Shown here piece after piece: positions 21,587 through 59,435 of a stretch of 64,000 bases of DNA. Position 1 is the stretch's first letter; the number at the start of each line of letters is the position of its first letter. The notes below the pieces were generated by a model, which ran no database searches, was not told where the DNA came from, and saw nothing but the letters and a program-made list of their open reading frames with translations. Both the position numbers and the translations under genes were made by a program. This stretch comes from Monodelphis domestica (lineage: Eukaryota; Chordata; Mammalia; Didelphimorphia; Didelphidae): NCBI RefSeq assembly GCF_027887165.1, contig NC_077235.1, positions 7,765,378 through 7,829,377 on the forward strand, in the 5' to 3' direction.

Positions 21587-22959
21587 ATGCCAATGCTTGC
21601 TCAAAGGGATCACTCAATTCTGCGACAAAATATTCAATCTTTCCTCAAAAAATTATACCTACAGAATGGAAAGGTCCCTCAGAATCTCCCAATAAAACCA
21701 TCACTAAATGATGAGCAGTATCCTGAAGTCTCATATACTCTGATATTCAATATTCAAAAGGATCAAGAAATATTGTTACTCAAGATGGTGAAAGGACATC
21801 AGAAGCTCTAACGTCTAATGGCGTTTTATATTCTAAGACACAATATTCAATGGGTTATAGCTCAATTGTTCTAAGAAAATGGGAAAGAACCTTAGAAACA
21901 ACTTATAAGAACCTCCTAAGTTGATGATGATTGGTCAAAGGGCCCAGTCCAATCTGTGATACAATATTTAATTTTTTATTAAAATATTATACCTACAGAA
22001 AGGAATGGGACCTCAGAACCTCCTAATACCCCCATCTCTAAACGATGAGGAGTATCCTGAAGACTCAATATATTCTGTTATTCAATATCCACGATGTACT
22101 AGAAATATTGTTCCTAAGGAATGTGAAAGGACATCAGAAGCTCTAAAATCTAATGGCCGTTCACATCCTAAGACACAACAGTCAAACTTTTATAGCACTA
22201 ATTTTCCATTAAAATGGGAAAAGAGTACAGAAATGAAAAAAATCCACTCACTCCATATGATGATAGTTGTTCCAACAGCCCAGTCGTTTCGAAATACAAC
22301 ACTCAAATTTTTAAAGAAATATAGTTTGCACAGAATTGGAAGGGACCCGTGAAGTTTCAAATCACAGCAAGCATAGGGAATGATGACATTTCTAAAGACC
22401 ATTTTCATTCTGAGATACAATATTTAATATGTACTTGAAATATTGGATCTACAGAATGTGAAAGGTCCTCAGATACTATGAATACCAAGGTGTCAAGAAG
22501 ATGATGTGGGTTCTGACCGCTCAATACATAGTCATATACCATATCCTAGTTGATATAGAAACATTGTTGTACAACATGTGAAATAACCTCAGGAATTCTA
22601 ACTTCTAAGGACTCATTCGTTTCATAGAGAAAATATCCAATGAGTTATAGCATTGTTTGTTCAACAGATTGAGAAAGAAACTCTTAAATGGCAAGATCTT
22701 ACCTTATCTGTAAGACCATGTGGATTCTCAGGCCCGATTTCATTCTATGACAAAATATTCAGTGTATTAGGAAGATATGAAACAGACAGCAAACTGAAGA
22801 ACTAAATGAAAGCAAATACTAATTATAGAAGACAACGAGGATTGTAGTCCACCATTAAATCGTTCGGTATGGTGTTCAATTCCTTAAGAAATATTGTTGC
22901 TGCAGACGGGGAAAATTGCTCAGAGACACACAAAATAAATAACTTTTCTGCATGACAAT
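21587..22959. repeat. Array copy 9 (partial, class B with an A patch)
   Basis: About 1,373 bp, stopping right at the half-unit boundary ('catgacaat'). It opens with class A sequence ('tctcatatactctg' near 21729, 'agaagctctaacg' near 21801) and becomes class B by about 21888 ('gaaccttagaaacaactt'). It stays B to the end. The last 4 bases (22956-22959, 'caat') are shared with the L1 that follows. Confidence 0.92.
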
Positions 22960-25504
22960 CTCCTTAATGAACACAGATGCAAAAATCTTAAATATGATAC
23001 TAGCAAAAAGACTCCAGCAAGTGATCATGTGGGTTACTCACTACGATCAGGTGGGATTTATACCAGGAATGCAAGGATCATTCAATATTAGGAAAGCCCT
23101 CTACATAATTGACAATATCAACAAGCAAACGAACAAAAATCACATGATTATTTCAATATATGCAGAAAAAGCCTTTGACAAAATACAACTCATTCCTATT
23201 AAAAACACTAGAAAGTATAGGAATAGAAGGGCCTTTCCTAAAAATAATAAACAGTATTTTTCTAAAACCATCAGCCAACATCATCCTCAATGGGAATAAA
23301 GTAGATGCATTCCAAATAAGTTCAGGAGTGATACAAGGATGCCCATTATCACCTCTATTATTTAACATTGTACTAGAAACACTAGCAGTAGCAATTAGAG
23401 AAGAGAAAGAAATTGAAGGTATTAAAATTTGTAATGAGGAGACCAAGCTATCACTCTTTGCAGATGATATGATGGTCTCCTTAAGGAATCCTAGAGAATC
23501 AACTAAAAAGCTAGTGGAAATAATCGACAACTTTAGCAAAGTTGCAGGATACAAAATAAACCCACACAAATGATCAGCATTTCTATATATCTCCAACCCA
23601 TTTCAGCAGCAAGAATTAGAAAGAGGAATTCCATTTAAAATCACCCTAGACAAAATAAAATACTTAGGAATCTATCTGACGAGACAAACACAGGAAATAT
23701 AGAACACAACTACAAAACACTTTCCACACAATTAAAACTAGATCTAAACAATTGGAAAAACATCAACTGCTCATGGGTAGGACGAGCTAACATAATCAAA
23801 ATGACAATCCTACCCAAACTAATTTACTTATTTGGGGCCATACCCATCAAACTACTAAAAAACTATTTAATAGATTTAGGAAAAAAATAACAAATTTTAT
23901 TTGGAAGAACAAAATATCAAGAATATCAAAGGAAATAATGAAAAATATGTGAAGGAAGGTGACCTAGCAGTACCAGTTCTTAAACTGTACTATAAAGCAG
24001 TAATCATCAAACACACATGATACTGGCTAAGAGACAAAAGGGAGGATCAGTGGAATAGACTTGGGGTAAGTGAGCTCAGTAAGACAGTCTATGATAAACC
24101 CAAAGATCCCAGCTTTGGGGGAAAACCCACTATTTGACAAAAACTGCTGGGAAAATTGGAAAACAGTATGGGAGAGATTATGTTTAGGTCAACATCTCAC
24201 ACTCTATACCAAGATAAACTCAGAATGGGTGAATGACTTGAACATAAAGAATGAAACAATAAGTAAATTAGGTGAACACAGAATAGTATACTTGTCAGAT
24301 CTTTGTGAAAGGAAAGATTTTAAGACCAAGCAAGAGTTAGAAAAAAATACAAAATGCAAAATAGATAATTTTGATTACATTAAATTAAAAAGGTCTTGTA
24401 TAAACAAAACCCATGCAGTCAAAATTAGAATGGAATCAACAAATTGTGAAATAATCTTTATACCAAAAACCTCTGACAAAGGTCTAATCACTCAAATTTA
24501 TAAGGAATTAAATCAATTGTACAAAAATCAAGCCATTCTCCAGTTGATAAATGGGCAAGGGACATGAATAGGCAATTTTCAGTCAAAGAAATCAAAACTA
24601 TTAATAATCACATGAAAATTTTTTCTAAATCTCTTATAATCAGAGAAATGCAAATCAAAACAACTCTAAGGTACCACCTAACACCTAGCAGATTGGCCAA
24701 CAGGACAGCAAGGGAAAGTAATAAATGTTGGAGGGGATGTGGCAAAATTGGGAAATTAATGCATTGCTGGTGGAGTTGTTAACTGATCCAACCATTCTGG
24801 AAGGCAATTTGAAACTATGTCTAAAGGGCGCTAAAAGCCTGTCTGCTCTTTGATCCAGCCATAGCACTGCTGGGTTTACACTTCAAAGAGATAAATAAGG
24901 AAAAAGACCTGTACAAAAATCTTATAGCCTCACTCTTTGTGGTGGCAAAAATTTGGAAAATGAGTGGATGCCCTCCGATTGGGCAATGGCTGAACAAATT
25001 GTTGTATCTGTTGATGGAATAGTATTCTGCTCAAAGGAATAAAAAATGGAGGGATTCCATATGAAGTGGAACAACCTCCAGGAAGTGATGCAGAGTGAGA
25101 GGAGCAGAACCAAAACATTGTACATAGAGACATTGTGGTACAATTGAATATAATGGACTTCTCTACTAGCAGCAATGTAATAATGATCCAGGATAATTTT
25201 GTAGGACTTATGAGAAAGAACACTATCCACATTCAGAGGAAGAATTGGGAATAGAAACACAGAAGAAAAACAACTGCTTGATCACATGGGTCGATGGGGA
25301 TATGACTAGTGACTTAGAGTCTACACAATCACCCTATTACAAATATTAATAATATGGAAATAAGTCTTGATCAATGACACATGTATAACACAGTGGATTT
25401 GCTCATTGACTATGGGAAGGGGCAGGAGGGAAAGAATATGAATCATGTAACCATGGAAATATATTCTAAATTAATTAAATAACAATTTTCAATTCAGAAA
25501 AATA
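22956..25504 (+). mobile_element. L1 LINE fragment, 3' half (ORF2 RT to 3' end), at array edge
   Basis: It begins inside L1 ORF2 ([19 protein letters not shown]...) and continues through the RT core, where [15 protein letters not shown] (near 23447) keeps the FADD residues. The C-terminal cysteine motif CWRGCGKIGKLMHCWWSC lies near 24728, and a 3'UTR ends in an A-rich tail near 25500. Reading is broken by several frameshifts and stops, so this is a decayed fragment. The same regions align with the intact L1 at 56741-59296. At the left junction only 'caat' is shared with the array, and the expected target-site duplication was not found on the right side. Confidence 0.93.
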
Positions 25505-52290: not shown

Positions 52291-52946
52291 AAAAAATAAA
52301 GAACTAAAAATAATTGGGCTACTATTCATTGTTCTTGGGCAAGTTAAATCAATGTAATAAAACTGACGGTACCTGAATTAATTTACTGGTTCAGCGTCAC
52401 AACAATCAAACGACTAAAAGATTATTTCTTAAAGTTGGAAAAAAATAATAAAATTCATCTGGAGAAATAAACGGTCAAGAATTTCATAGAAAAGTGGGAA
52501 GCAAGGGGCCACGTACCAGGTCTCAAACTATACTACAAAGCATTAATCATGAAATGGTTTACTACTGGTCAGAAATTAGATCATTCTGCAGGGGAACAAA
52601 TTAGGTACTCAGCATATAGTAGCAAATGAATAGGGTTTAATAATATGAATGACTGTGATAAATACAAAGACTATAACTACTGGGTAAGCACTCACTATTT
52701 GACTATTGGGAAAAGTGGAAAATAGTCTGGCAAAAATTAGGTGTAGACCAGTACCTCACATCATATATGAAGAGAAACTCTAAATTACTAAGATGTAAGA
52801 AGCTGCATCAGAAGCAAATGAAGGAAGGAAAAATTTACCCTTTAAATTTATGGAAGGAAGGGGGGGTTTGTGATGAAACAAAGGACAGAGTCAGGTAAAA
52901 GAGATAATTTTGATTATGTATAATTAAAAAGGTTTTATGCAAACAA
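52291..52946 (+). mobile_element. Older L1 ORF2 segment, plus strand (left part)
   Basis: Decayed L1 ORF2 words in order: NKFIWRNKRSRIS-like near 52450, GLKLYYKALIMK-like near 52530, a tryptophan-rich YWEKWKIVWQKLG-like stretch near 52700, and FDYV/LKRFYANKTN near 52910. It is interrupted by the intact L1 and continues at 59329. Its junction with the opposite-strand piece at ~52290 suggests an inversion of the twin-priming kind. Confidence 0.78.
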
Positions 52947-52959
52947 AACTAACACAGTT
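52947..52959. repeat. Target-site duplication, left, of the full-length L1
   Basis: 'aactaacacagtt', identical to 59316-59328 apart from merging with the poly(A) run. It defines the L1 5' end at 52960. Confidence 0.95.
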
Positions 52960-53652
52960 GGACTTCCGGTTAAGATGGCGGCTTAGAGAAAGCTAAAGCT
53001 CAGATCTCCGGAAAACCCTTCCCGACCAATCTCAAACGATAAGCTCCTAAGGCGCCGAAATTCAAAACGATCAACAGCACAGACCCTGGGAACCCTCCTC
53101 CTGGACCTGGACCTGGACCCGGTTCAAAAGGTACGGCTCCCCTTAAAAGCCAGAACCCGAGATCACTCGGACCTCAGGGGTAGGAGCGCAGAGTCCAAGG
53201 CTCCCGGAAGCCGCAGCCCGGCCGGCTCAGAGAGCAGGGTCCTCGGAAACAACAACCCTCAGGGCCTTCTACAGTCCCGGTGAAAGTTACTGCCTGGGGC
53301 TTCCGCTGCAGAGAGCTGGTCAAAACAACAGCAACCCTCAGGGCGGGCAAGACAGCCTCACGGGCTGGATCCTGCTATCCAAGTCTCAGTGAAAGTCTGT
53401 GCTCTCGGAGCTTGGGGAAGCGGCAGCCCATCCCCCCGCAGGCCGACGAAACAGCCTCACGGCCAGGGATTCTGAAGGCAACTTCCGGAAATCGAGCCAG
53501 GGGGAGAGTGTGGCCTCGTGGTCCGACCCTTCCATTCCAGTTCCAGTGAGGCATATTCAGTTTAACCCAGGGAAAGCCCATAGAACTATCTGCCCAGGAC
53601 TGCCTCTGAACACCAGAAAGAGACAAGAAAAACTAATCCTCCACATTCAGAG
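52960..53652 (+). promoter_or_regulatory. L1 5'UTR / internal promoter
   Basis: 693 bp, GC- and CpG-rich in an AT-rich neighbourhood, as for L1 internal promoters, which drive transcription from their own first base. It contains imprecise internal duplications: 'caaccctcagggc' near 53253 and 53332, 'cagtcccggtgaaagt' and 'aagtctcagtgaaagt' near 53272 and 53380, and 'acagcctcacgg' near 53350 and 53450. This suggests a short monomer-like structure. No TATA box is seen. Confidence 0.85.
52972..52982 (+). promoter_or_regulatory. YY1-type site at L1 start
   Basis: 'aagatggcggc' begins 13 nt into the element. In primate L1 a YY1 site of this form at the same location sets the transcription start. 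The same role here is an inference from position and motif. Confidence 0.75.
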
Positions 53653-54618
53653 ATGACAAACTCCACAGAACCACAGAAGCCCCAAAATACCAAGAAAAAT
53701 AAGAAGAAAGGGGCGACTTTGGACACATTCTATGGAGCCAAAATACAAAATACAGAGCAGACAGAAGATAATATAAAAGAAAATGCTCCAAAACCTTCCA
53801 AAGGAAATGGAAACTCTCCACAAACCTATGAAGAATTTGAATCAGAAATGACCAAAAAGATGGAAGCCTTCTGGGAGGAAAAGTTGGAAATAATGCAAAA
53901 GAAATTCACGCATCTACAAAACCAGTTTGACCAAACTGTAAAAGAAAACCAGGCTTTAAAGGCCAGAATCAGGCAGCTGGAAGACAACGATCGTGTAAAA
54001 GAGCAAGAATCAATAAAGCAAAGCCAAAATACCAAGAAATTAGAAGAGAACATAAAATATCTCACCGACAAGGTGATAGATCTGGAAAATAGGGGGAGAA
54101 GGGATAATTTAAGAATAATTGGACTCCCAGATAAGCCAGAAATAAACACCAAACTGGACATGGTGATACAAGATATAATCAAAGAAAATTGCCCAGAGAT
54201 TCTAGAACAAGGGGGCAATACAGCCACTGACAGAGCTCACAGAACACCTTCTACACTAAACCCCCAAAAGACAACTCCCAGGAATGTAATTGCCAAATTC
54301 CAAAGCTATCAAACAAAAGAAAAAATCCTACAGGAAGCCAGAAAAAGACAATTTAGATATAAAGGAATGCCAATCAGGGTCACCCAAGACCTTGCAAGTT
54401 CTACTCTGAATGATCGTAAGGCATGGAACATGATCTTCAGAAAGGCAAGAGAGCTGGGTCTCCAACCAAGAATCAGCTACCCAGCAAAACTGACTATATA
54501 CTTCCAAGGGAAAGTATGGGCATTCAACAAAATAGAAGACTTCCAACTTTTTGCAAAGAAAAGACCAGAGCTCTGTGGAAAGTTTGATACCGAAAATCAA
54601 AGAGCAAGGAATACCTGA
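53653..54618 (+). CDS. L1 ORF1p, RNA-binding chaperone of the L1 RNP
   Basis: 321 codons, uninterrupted. ORF1p trimerises, coats L1 RNA and acts as a nucleic-acid chaperone in cytoplasmic RNPs. Seen in the protein: a basic N-terminus (KKNKKKG, residues 14-20); a heptad-rich coiled coil from about 60 to 147 (EFESEMTKKMEAFWEEKL onward); an RRM from about 149 to 240 opening with RRDNLRIIGLPD; and a C-terminal domain from about 245 to 312 with RISYPAKLTIYF (YPAKL at 286-290), the hallmark of mammalian ORF1p. Length is close to the human protein (338 aa). The start codon has a purine at -3 and is the first ATG of the open frame after the 5'UTR. The downstream ORF2 is in the same element, 532 nt away. 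Confidence 0.95.
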   Translation: MTNSTEPQKPQNTKKNKKKGATLDTFYGAKIQNTEQTEDNIKENAPKPSKGNGNSPQTYEEFESEMTKKMEAFWEEKLEIMQKKFTHLQNQFDQTVKENQALKARIRQLEDNDRVKEQESIKQSQNTKKLEENIKYLTDKVIDLENRGRRDNLRIIGLPDKPEINTKLDMVIQDIIKENCPEILEQGGNTATDRAHRTPSTLNPQKTTPRNVIAKFQSYQTKEKILQEARKRQFRYKGMPIRVTQDLASSTLNDRKAWNMIFRKARELGLQPRISYPAKLTIYFQGKVWAFNKIEDFQLFAKKRPELCGKFDTENQRARNT

Positions 54619-55150
54619 AAAGGTAAATATTAAGGAAAGGGGAAAATGTTATCTTCTTCTTTTACTCAAACTCTCTTCTATAAGGACTACATTTATATCA
54701 ACCTATGTATACTAACATGTGGGGAAAATGTAATGTATAAATAGGGGGTAAAGAAAGACCAAATAGAATAATCATTCTCACACAAAGATTCACATGGGAA
54801 GGGGAGGGGAAGAAAACTCCTATAAGAAGGAGAGGAAGAGAGGGGGGGGGGTTACTTAAACCTCAATCTCAGGGAAATCAGCTCTGAGAGGGAAAAACCT
54901 CCAGATCCATTGGGATCTTGAATTCTATCTTACCCAACAAGGGTAAGGAGAAGGGAAAACCAAGGGGGGGAGGGGGAGAGGGAGAACAAAAAGGGAGGGT
55001 AAGAGAGGGGGGAGAGGGAGGGAACAAAAAGGGAGGGACTAAAAAGGGAAACATCAAGGGAGGGGACAAGGGGGACTGTTTCAAAGTAAATCACTGGACT
55101 AAAAGGTAGAGCCGAAGAAGAAAAGGTTAGAATTAGGGAAGGCAATCAAA
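54619..55150 (+). promoter_or_regulatory. Long purine- and G-rich inter-ORF spacer of L1
   Basis: 532 nt between the ORF1 stop and the ORF2 start, much longer than the roughly 60-nt spacer of human L1. From about 54790 to 55080 the sense strand is almost pure purine with many runs of 3-10 G (for example 54842-54851 and 54965-55020), so it could form G-quadruplexes. Small frames here are low-complexity translations of that tract. It may bear on how ORF2 is translated, but that is inference. Confidence 0.8.
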
Positions 55151-58100
55151 ATGCCAGGGAGTCCACAAATGACAATCATAACTTTGAACGTGAATGGGAT
55201 GAACTCACCCATAAAACGTAGACGAATAGCAGAATGGATTAGAATCCAAAACCCTACCATATGTTGTCTTCAAGAAACACACATGAGGCGGGTTGACACC
55301 CACAAGGTCAGAATTAAAGGATGGAGTAAGACCTTCTGGGCTTCAACTGATAGAAAGAAGGCAGGAGTGGTAATCATGATATCTGATAAAGCCAATGCAA
55401 AAATAGACCTGATCAAAAGGGATAGGGAAGGTAATTATATTTTGTTAAAAGGGACTATAGACAATGAGGAAATATCATTAATCAATATGTATGCACCAAA
55501 TAATATAGCACCCAAATTTCTAATGGAGAAACTAGGAGAATTGAAGGAAGAAATAGACAATAAAACCATACTAGTGGGAGACTTAAACCAACCATTATCA
55601 AATTTAGATAAATCAAATCAAAAAATAAATAAGAAAGAGGTAAAAGAAGTGAATGAAATCTTAGAAAAATTAGAATTAATAGACATATGGAGAAAAATAA
55701 ATAGGGATAAAAAGGAATACACCTTCTTCTCAGCACCACATGGCACATTCACAAAAATTGACCATACATTAGGTCACAGAAACATAGCACACAAATGCAG
55801 AAAAGCAGAAATAATGAATGCAGCCTTCTCAGATCACAAGGCAATAAAAATAATGATTAGTAATGGTACATGGAAAACCAAATCTAAAACCAATTGGAAA
55901 TTAAACAATATGATACTCCAAAACCGTTTAGTTAAAGAAGAAATCATAGAAACAATTAATAATTTCATCGAGGAAAATGACAATGGCGAAACATCCTTCC
56001 AAACCTTTTGGGATGCAGCCAAAGCGGTAATCAGAGGTAAATTCATATCCCTGAATGCTTATATTAACAAACAAGGGAGAGCAGAGATCAATCAATTGGA
56101 AATGCAAATGAAAAAACTGGAAAGCGATCAAATTAAAAACCCCCAGCAGAAAACCAAATTAGAAATCCTAAAAATTAAGGGAGAAATTAATAAAATCGAA
56201 AGTGATAGAACTATTGATTTAATAAATGAGACAAGAAGCTGGTACTTTGAAAAAACAAACAAAATAGACAAGGTACTGGTCAATCTAGTTAAAAAAAGGA
56301 AGGAAGAAAAGCAAATTCACAGCATTAAAGATGAAAAGGGGGACAGCACCTCCAATGAGGAGGAAATTAAGGCAATCATTAGAAATTACTTTGCCCAATT
56401 ATATGGCAATAAATACACCAATTTAGGAGAAATGGATGAATATATACAAAAATACAAACTGCCTAGACTAACAGAAGAGGAAATAGAATTCCTAAATAAT
56501 CCCATATCAGAAATTGAAATCCAACAAGCCATCAAAGAACTTCCAAAGAAAAAGTCCCCAGGGCCTGATGGATTCACCTGTGAATTCTATCAAACATTCA
56601 GAGAACAGTTAATCCCAATACTATACAAACTATTTGACATAATAAGCAAAGAGGGAGTTCTGCCAAACTCCTTTTACGACACAAACATGGTACTGATTCC
56701 AAAACCAGGCAGGTCAAAAACAGAGAAAGAAAACTATAGGCCAATCTCCCTAATGAATATAGATGCAAAAATCTTAAATAGGATACTAGCAAAAAGACTC
56801 CAGCAAGTGATCAGAAGGATCATTCACCATGATCAAGTAGGATTCATACCAGGGATGCAGGGCTGGTTCAACATTAGGAAAACCATCCACATAATTGACC
56901 ACATCAACAAGCAAACCAATAAGAATCACATGATTATCTCAATAGATGCAGAAAAAGCCTTTGATAAAATACAACACCCATTCCTATTAAAAACACTAGA
57001 AAGCATAGGAATAGAAGGGTCATTCCTAAAAATAATAAACAGTATATATCTAAAACCAACAGCTAATATCATCTGCAATGGGGATAAACTAGATGCATTC
57101 CCAATAAGATCAGGAGTGAAACAAGGATGCCCATTATCACCTCTACTATTTGACATTGTACTAGAAACACTAGCAGTAGCAATTAGAGAAGATAAAGGAA
57201 TTGAAGGCATCAAAATAGGCAAGGAGGAGACCAAGTTATCACTCTTTGCGGATGACATGATGGTCTACTTAAAGAATCCTAGAGATTCAACCAAAAAGCT
57301 AATTGAAATAATCAACAACTTTAGCAAAGTTGCAGGATACAAAATAAACCCACATAAATCATCAGCTTTTCTATATATCTCCAACACAGCTCAGCAGCAA
57401 GAACTAGAAAGAGAAATCCCATTCAAAATCACCTTAGACAAAATAAAATACCTAGGAATCTACCTCCCAAGACAAACACAGGAACTATATGAACACAACT
57501 ACAAAACACTCGCCACACAACTAAAACTAGACTTGAACAAATGGAAAAACATTAACTGCTCATGGATAGGACGAGCCAATATAATAAAAATGACCATCCT
57601 ACCCAAACTTATTTATCTATTTAGTGCCATACCCATTGAACTACCAAAATACTTCTTCACTGATTTAGAAAAAAACATAACAAAGTTCATTTGGAAGAAC
57701 AAAAGATCAAGGATATCCAGGGAAATAATGAAAAAAAACACATATGATGGGGGCCTTGCAGTCCCTGACCTAAAACTATATTACAAAGCAGCAGTCATCA
57801 AAACAATTTGGTACTGGCTAAGAAATAGAAAGGAAGATCAGTGGAATAGACTGGGGGAAAGCGACCTCAGCAAGACAGTATACGATAAACCCAAAGATCC
57901 CAGCTTTTGGGACAAAAATCCACTATTTCATAAAAACTGCTGGGAAAATTGGAAGACAGTGTGGGAGAGACTAGGAATAGATCAACACCTCACACCCTAC
58001 ACCAAGATAAATTCAAAATGGGTGAGTGACTTAAACATAAAGAAGGAAACCATAAGTAAATTGGGTAAACACAGAATAGTATACATGTCAGACCTTTGGG

Positions 58101-58957
58101 AGGGGAAAGGCTTTAAAACCAAGCAAGATATAGAAAGAATCACAAAATGTAAAATAAATAATTTTGACTACATCAAACTAAAAAGCTTTTGTACAAACAA
58201 AACCAATATAACTAAAATCAGAAGGGAAACAACAAATTGGGAAAAAATCTTCATAGAAACCTCTGACAAAGGTTTAATTACTCATATTAATAAAGAGCTA
58301 AATCAATTGTACACAAAATCAAGCCATTCTCCAATTGATAAATGGGCAAGGGAAATGGATAGGCAGTTCTCAGATAAAGAAATCAAAACTATTAACAAGC
58401 ACATGAAGAAGTGTTCTACATCTCTTATAATCAGAGAGATGCAAATCAAAACAACTCTGAGGTATCACCTCACACCTAGCAGATTGGCTAACATAACAGC
58501 AAAGGAAAGTAATGAATGCTGGAGGGGATGTGGCAAAGTAGGGACATTAATTCATTGCTGGTGGAGCTGTGAACTGATCCAACCATTCTGGAGGGCAATT
58601 TGGAACTATGCCCAAAGGGCGACAAAAGAATATCTACCCTTTGACCCAGCCATAGCACTGCTGGGTCTGTACCCCAAAGAGATAATGGACACAAAGACTT
58701 GTACAAAAATATTCATAGCTGCGCTCTTTGTGGTGGCCCAAAACTGGAAAATGAGGGGATGCCCATCAATTGGGGAATGGCTGAACAAACTGTGGTATAT
58801 GTTGGTGATGGAGTACTATTGCGCTAAAAGGAATAATAAAGTGGAGAAGTTCCATGGAGACTGGAACAACCTCCAGGAAGTGATGCAGAGCGAGAGGAGC
58901 AGAACCAGGAGAACACTGTACACAGAGACTAATACACTGTGGTATAATCGAACGTAA
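55151..58957 (+). CDS. L1 ORF2p, endonuclease and reverse transcriptase
   Basis: 1,268 codons, uninterrupted (human ORF2p is 1,275). It nicks target DNA and primes reverse transcription of L1 RNA at the nick. The N-terminal APE-type endonuclease spans residues 1-~236, with N15 in LNVNG, E42 in QETH, Y114 in MYAPN, D144 and N146 in VGDLN, D204-H205 in KIDH and D228-H229 in SDH. The linker is followed by [17 protein letters not shown] near 464. In the reverse transcriptase, motif A D599 lies in [24 protein letters not shown] is near 655, and FADD is at 699-702. The C-terminal cysteine motif has C1123, C1127, H1135, C1136 and C1140. The start [16 protein letters not shown] lines up with the known L1 start, favouring codon 1 over the ATG at codon 7. 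Confidence 0.97.
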
Positions 58958-59296
58958 TGGACTTCTCCATTAGTGGCGGTGTAATGTCCCTGAACAACTT
59001 GCAGGGACCCAGGAGAAAAAAACACCATTCATAAGCAAAGGATAAACTATGGGAGTGGAAACACCGAGAAAAAGCAACTGCCTGAATACAAAGATTGAGG
59101 GGACATGACAGAGGATAGACTCTAAATGAACACTCTAATGCAAATACTATCAACAAAGCAATGGGTTCAAATCAAGAAAACATCTAATGCCCAGTGGACT
59201 TACGCGTCGGCTATGGGGGGTTGGGGGGGGGGAGGAAAAGAAAATGATCTATGTCTTTAACGAATAATGCTTGGAAATGACCAAATAAAATATATT
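58958..59296 (+). other. L1 3'UTR with G-tract
   Basis: 339 nt. It contains a G-run region at 59213-59233 ('atggggggttgggggggggg'-like), a conserved type of L1 3'UTR feature capable of quadruplex formation. 'ccaaataaaatatatt' just before the tail holds the likely AATAAA polyadenylation signal. Confidence 0.88.
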
Positions 59297-59315
59297 AAAA
59301 AAAAAAAAAAAAAAA
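59297..59315 (+). other. L1 poly(A) tail
   Basis: Uninterrupted A run before the right target duplication. Its exact left edge within the A's is ambiguous. An unmutated tail fits a recent insertion. Confidence 0.9.
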
Positions 59316-59328
59316 AACTAACACAGTT
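59316..59328. repeat. Target-site duplication, right, of the full-length L1
   Basis: 'aactaacacagtt' repeats 52947-52959. The host L1 sequence resumes straight after it. Confidence 0.95.
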
Positions 59329-59435
59329 ATAATAAAGAAAAATAGATATCTAGAAAAAAATCTTTGCAGCTAGTCTCTCTTAGAAAAGTCTCATTTCCAT
59401 GATACATTTGACAATATAAAATGGGCAAGAAGTTT
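59329..59435 (+). mobile_element. Older L1 ORF2 segment, plus strand (right part)
   Basis: Continuation of the segment at 52291-52946. It matches the L1 region after [15 protein letters not shown] ('tagaaaaaaatctttgcagc', 'gacaatataaaatgggcaag') and then dissolves into T-rich sequence. Confidence 0.75.

Follow-up and report, generated by a model that had tools for sequence, protein, structure and literature searches.

The inter-ORF spacer of human L1 is ~63 nt long, compared with 532 nt in the opossum element described here. Opossum transposable elements reportedly received a treatment by Gentles et al. in 2007. In the excerpted text of PMC4072516, spacer lengths range from 18 to 580 bp over 31 species, with long spacers among some marsupials, and the megabat L1 family 1A, which is extinct, has a 445 bp spacer that is inhibitory in culture. 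The American opossum L1 is stated there to have been omitted from the alignment, so that the paper may not cover the young opossum family. As to L1 activity in marsupials, the excerpts of PMC4476161 note that a scarcity of U6 pseudogene copies would point to its loss, but that L1 nonetheless seems active in some marsupials, citing opossum SINE-1, and opossum is counted among the species with recently active families in the excerpts of PMC7140322. The excerpts of PMC5851578, PMC5399452, PMC12424770, PMC6036668 and PMC3820666 contain nothing specific to the present copy, and no description of this particular copy was recognised in our literature search, in which papers were mostly judged without full texts.

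The element studied here lies in a 64,000-nucleotide stretch of Monodelphis domestica DNA (the window) on contig C9, which, from the karyotype, is most likely the X chromosome. It is a genuine LINE-1 copy of full length and very recent origin on the plus strand (52960–59317), with both ends present and both ORFs open. Taken as a whole, the evidence leaves us highly confident that it is a recent full-length L1 insertion from a young opossum family, where it forms the tip of a small sub-lineage.

Overall organization and insertion site

The coordinates of the element and of its insertion site are collected in Table 1. The initial annotation had proposed a start at 52960, two uninterrupted frames, an unmutated A tail and matching target-site duplications (TSDs), all of which are borne out; the end that it placed at 59315, however, falls within the A run, two bases short of its last A. 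The YY1-type motif at 52972–52981 was matched by eye to the known motif. The ORF1 domains, an ORF2 with an APE-type endonuclease, a reverse transcriptase (RT) and a Cys-rich region, and the poly(A) tail with a TSD place the element in the LINE-1 clade.

Table 1. Features of the L1 copy and of its insertion site, in positions of the window
Feature	Positions	Strand	Remarks
Ancient L1 ORF2, left part (insertion target)	52309..52959	+	Alignment picks up again at 59329-59364
Left target-site duplication AAAACTAACACAGTT	52945..52959	+	15/15 match to right copy
5'UTR	52960..53652	+	693 nt, GC 57%, 32 CpG, one ATG only
YY1-type motif AAGATGGCGG and overlapping 3-codon uORF	52972..52986	+	uORF Met-Ala-Ala-stop, ATG at 52975
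Stretch carrying one additional 6-bp tandem unit	53094..53125	+	Private tag vs young relatives
ORF1	53653..54618	+	321 codons; RBD-like and dsRBD-like domains
Inter-ORF spacer	54619..55150	+	532 nt, purine 69%, six ATGs
ORF2	55151..58957	+	1,268 codons
Endonuclease domain	55178..55837	+	ORF2 residues 10-229; Pfam PF03372
Reverse transcriptase domain	56696..57463	+	ORF2 residues 516-771, FADD at 699; Pfam PF00078
Sub-lineage diagnostic patch	56917..56938	+	ORF2 codons 589-596
ORF2 codon 842	57674..57676	+	Asn here; Thr in human, both sisters and 16/19 C1 copies
ORF2 codon 1047	58289..58291	+	Asn here; Tyr in human, both sisters and 20/20 C1 copies
C-terminal Cys motif CX3CX7HX4C	58517..58570	+	
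3'UTR	58958..59296	+	339 nt; G-rich run, AATAAA at 59284
A tail	59297..59317	+	21 A, no interruption; final four common to TSD
Right target-site duplication AAAACTAACACAGTT	59314..59328	+	First four A common to A tail

When the two flanks are joined to give the empty site, an alignment to L1 ORF2 runs through the join (72% over 104 columns); the insertion thus lies inside an old L1 that runs in the same direction. The further L1 pieces of the window had been described as fragmentary; blastn detects ten of them, 13–29% diverged, of which two stop short of ORF2, and the eight covering ORF2 codons hold 1 to 9 stops each.

A nick at TTTT is linked to L1 target-primed reverse transcription, and the pattern at this site, with the lower strand opened after TTTT, fits that process. 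A source element of the young, numerous opossum family would have been transcribed into full-length LINE-1 RNA, which would then have been copied into the contig by target-primed reverse transcription, inside the ancient L1. An endonuclease nick on the lower strand would have allowed the 3' TTTT to prime on the poly(A) tail, and reverse transcription would have run through to the 5' end, with the insertion producing the 15-bp duplication. Since the split from its sisters, the element has acquired about three substitutions and one 6-bp slippage.

Encoded proteins

ORF1 contains L1 RBD-like and dsRBD-like domains (Pfam PF02994 and PF17490) and matches human ORF1p (2ykp). In ORF2, Pfam identifies an endonuclease domain and RVT_1, and the score of 1,550 bits against human ORF2p excludes chance, with 670 of 1,253 aligned residues identical. 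The domain order is the same as in human L1 (ORF2p structure 8sxt). Among the residues examined, nine endonuclease positions, the three RT aspartates and four Cys-motif residues are identical to those of human ORF2p, in agreement with the earlier view that these motifs are complete. Three of the four PIP-box positions are also identical to human, and the remaining one is changed from Tyr to Phe. The endonuclease, RT, Cys-motif and PIP-box positions are presumed here to be the important ones. With open ORFs and the known catalytic residues intact, the proteins could work.

Older window copies cover 1,164 codons, each at least once. At 22 of these codons the element departs from a residue common to human and all older copies present there; since a single older copy underlies 12 of the 22, most of these differences are weak. 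An IMG/VR protein search for L1 relatives returned none. Among solved structures, CFAP61 (chain 9d2f_J) matches ORF2 residues 1082–1121 with an E-value of 1.5e-10, as would be expected if a fragment of L1 had become an exon of that protein.

A young family in the opossum genome

The assembly that contains the window, 3.59 Gb in 13 contigs, was used for the genome-wide searches. With the whole element as probe, 24 places were scored among 6,762 candidates, one being the element itself, and all 23 others are full length at 99–100% identity. A 401-base ORF2 probe, for which 40 places were scored among 1,045 candidates, gave 39 other places at 100% after rounding, one score step under the self-match. 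Twenty copies from C1 were then taken from those best matching in the 3' part of ORF2. Seventeen of the 20 are full length and lie 0.36–1.46% from the element, and 13 of these 17 have ORFs of exactly 321 and 1,268 codons, a fraction that is not a genome-wide rate because the copies were picked for similarity. A simple exact search detected TSDs of 12–19 bp, some of them A-rich, in 18 of the 20. At the other end of the element, ORF1 is open over 321 codons in all of 29 loci (L030–L058) out of the 39 other scored 5' matches.

The young family shares with the element its length, ORF lengths, spacer and uORF. The element is set apart from it by 6 bp extra in the 5'UTR, by Asn842 and Asn1047 of ORF2, and by a patch found at 11 places. 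The suggested check, a search of the genome for full-length copies nearly identical to the element, found many, among them the whole-element matches, the C1 copies and two sisters described below. The family was spreading very recently, and the element, as one of a large and near-identical family, is a good example of it and not a surprise. One apparent peculiarity was set aside. A private stop loss at the end of ORF2 had been suspected since all five older window copies that reach codon 1267 read TGA there, where the element has CGA; however, the same 1,268-codon ORF2 in 13 of the 17 young full-length copies and in both sisters identifies CGA as the young family's state.

Sub-lineage, sisters and age

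The element differs at nine sites from all C1 copies covering each site (17 or 20). A 41-mer over the codon 589–596 patch occurs at 11 places genome-wide, the element included. Two of the ten other patch-bearing places were examined. In the whole-element search these two copies, both located on C3, rank directly after the element itself among the 24 places scored of the 6,762 candidates; they are referred to here as its sisters. Over 6,330 bp they differ from the element by 4 and 9 substitutions, in addition to the 6-bp unit. Each is full length, carries two open ORFs and has its own TSD. A FastTree tree of 20 rows places the element and the two sisters together with a support of 0.999, the tip of the element being 0.00054 long.

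Relative to both sisters, the element is changed at sites 2056 (spacer), 4716 (T842N) and 5330 (Y1047N), and carries the additional 6 bp. The state at site 2056 is also seen in one C1 copy, and Asn842 in 3 of the 19 C1 copies covering the codon. Of the three sites, only the one of Y1047N has a state shared by none of the 22 other young copies retrieved. The 6-bp long form occurs exactly at 4 places in the genome, compared with 4,197 for the 26-base short form of the stretch, and the other three long forms lie in copies that are only 87–94% identical.

At a neutral rate of 2–3 substitutions per billion sites per year, the three substitutions would correspond to ~0.2 million years; if their number is raised to its Poisson upper limit of 8.8, the age becomes about 0.5–0.7 million years. 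The open ORFs alone limit neutral divergence to less than 0.33–0.68% (95%, varying with the assumed indel rate). The description of the copy as intact and very young is upheld; it has near-identical full-length relatives, and the nearest sister found differs by 4 substitutions plus 6 bp. As a sign of selection on the lineage, the third-position bias among the ORF2 changes private to the element is modest (24/46 vs 80/221; one-sided Fisher p 0.033, uncorrected), and a shared-versus-singleton test for selection within the young family was not significant (p 0.15).

Prospects for movement

The initial annotation had regarded the element as a candidate active copy. The part of this claim that concerns an intact and very young element stands, but the copy is not special in this respect, as the ORFs are equally open in the two sisters and in 13 of the 17 C1 copies of full length. 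ORF changes at conserved residues had been named as evidence that would speak against activity, and Y1047N and T842N are in part such changes. Its competence for retrotransposition is therefore to be stated with reserve: the ORFs are open, and a private change is present at a conserved residue.

A nearly balanced, though still tentative, reading is that the copy is a recent fossil, young and open, whose movement was abolished by Y1047N or another private change. Tyr1047 is present in human ORF2p, in all five older window copies covering it, in all 20 C1 copies and in both sisters, and the exact 36-base context occurs genome-wide 1,910 times in the Tyr form and 4 times in the Asn form. The three other Asn places are more diverged copies, 93–98% identical, which miss the neighbouring states of the sub-lineage wholly or partly. 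However, codon 1047 lies outside the catalytic motifs checked, and most recent copies are expected to have no offspring anyway.

The origin of the sub-lineage offers a second alternative, in which the codon 589–596 patch was acquired from another L1 by gene conversion or template switch and not by point changes. The clustering of four of the nine sites that distinguish the element from the C1 copies within 22 bp of ORF2 would agree with such a mosaic, and part of the patch is similar to both older window copies that span this region. Neither of these two, however, has the whole patch, and its presence at 11 places and in both sisters indicates that it is older than the element copy. We consider a mosaic origin unlikely, though worth retaining.

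Less probable still is that the element is a live source producing new insertions now. Its open ORFs, its complete 5' end and the very recent spread of the family would favor this, but its private tags are shared by no offspring-like place. Exact genome-wide searches for the 6-bp and Asn1047 tags yielded no offspring, within the reach of such searches: a daughter copy lacking its 5' end would no longer carry the 6-bp tag, and both searches would miss a daughter whose truncation extends past codon 1047 or that is altered within a tag. The other places with either tag were considered as progeny and rejected, since the tags recur only in more diverged copies and so represent recurrences. As the exact 36-base search returned no young Asn1047 copy, there is no sign that the element served as a source. 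Chance similarity or a pseudogene is ruled out by the open ORFs, the catalytic residues and the TSD. The individual copy, a recent insertion from the young family, is otherwise ordinary and not exceptional in its genome, and represents well-confirmed biology.

A microRNA array in the same window

The window also contains a tandem array (window 1–22959; G000:C9:7700967–7787381) with a 2,699-bp unit that is 98.4–100% identical within the window and is composed of related monomers ~335 bp long. Each unit has three mir-7360 hits, plus mir-7359 hits on the minus strand, and both Rfam families score full length in the window. All 32 places in the assembly with an exact 59-base match to mir-7360 lie inside this single 86-kb stretch. 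The array ends where a 5'-truncated L1 starts (window 22956–25441; ~16% diverged from the young element), and no more pieces of the 2,699-bp unit were found beyond that L1 within the window. A literature search for mir-7360 found no paper. This higher-order-repeat microRNA array is possibly more interesting than the L1.

5'UTR and inter-ORF spacer

The 5'UTR is a predicted internal promoter, on account of its GC-rich composition and YY1-type start. It is the most variable region in the 20 rows (76/661 sites, vs 111/3,807 in ORF2). All 19 full-length relatives and all 29 loci mentioned above, two sets that partly overlap, have exactly one ATG in this region, near its start; the uORF peptide is identical in all 29 loci, while one of the 19 relatives deviates from the exact uORF string searched. 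Among three more diverged copies, two (L060 and L061) have additional ATGs and one (L059) has a single ATG. The single AUG compares with 4.07 expected, but 5.3% of 2,000 shuffles are equally low, so the scarcity of AUGs is only suggestive. The single ATG is compatible with selection against upstream AUGs in a leader that is capped and scanned, with the qualification that the copies are close relatives and that shuffling gives a marginal result. In three young copies (L021, L031 and L035) the 5'UTR varies in length by tens of bases, beside the 6-bp variant of the element, which suggests that the promoter region often undergoes slippage or duplication. Weak internal repeats with spacings of 79–210 bp are also observed in the 5'UTR.

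The spacer is 531–535 nt long in the 18 of 19 relatives in which the script could measure it. A long spacer is already known in kind, although perhaps not for the young opossum family. The likeness to megabat L1 family 1A consists in the spacer, 445 bp there and 532 here; however, that family is extinct and its spacer inhibitory in culture, according to the excerpts of PMC4072516, whereas the opossum family is recent and numerous. We put forward, as a possibility that we hold to be somewhat doubtful, an ongoing opossum L1 wave in which many open-ORF, long-spacer L1s coexist, making ORF2 protein across a purine-rich 532-nt spacer with six AUGs, behind a 5'UTR that is free of AUGs except for the 3-codon uORF.

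The element itself is a roughly dated, tagged and nearly unmutated marsupial L1 copy with two identified near-identical sisters. Since the long spacer is found in a young and numerous family, a living species is available in which to study how ORF2 is translated beyond it. If the proposed wave is real, the opossum would provide a living natural system for the problem of long-spacer L1 translation that was posed by the extinct megabat element.
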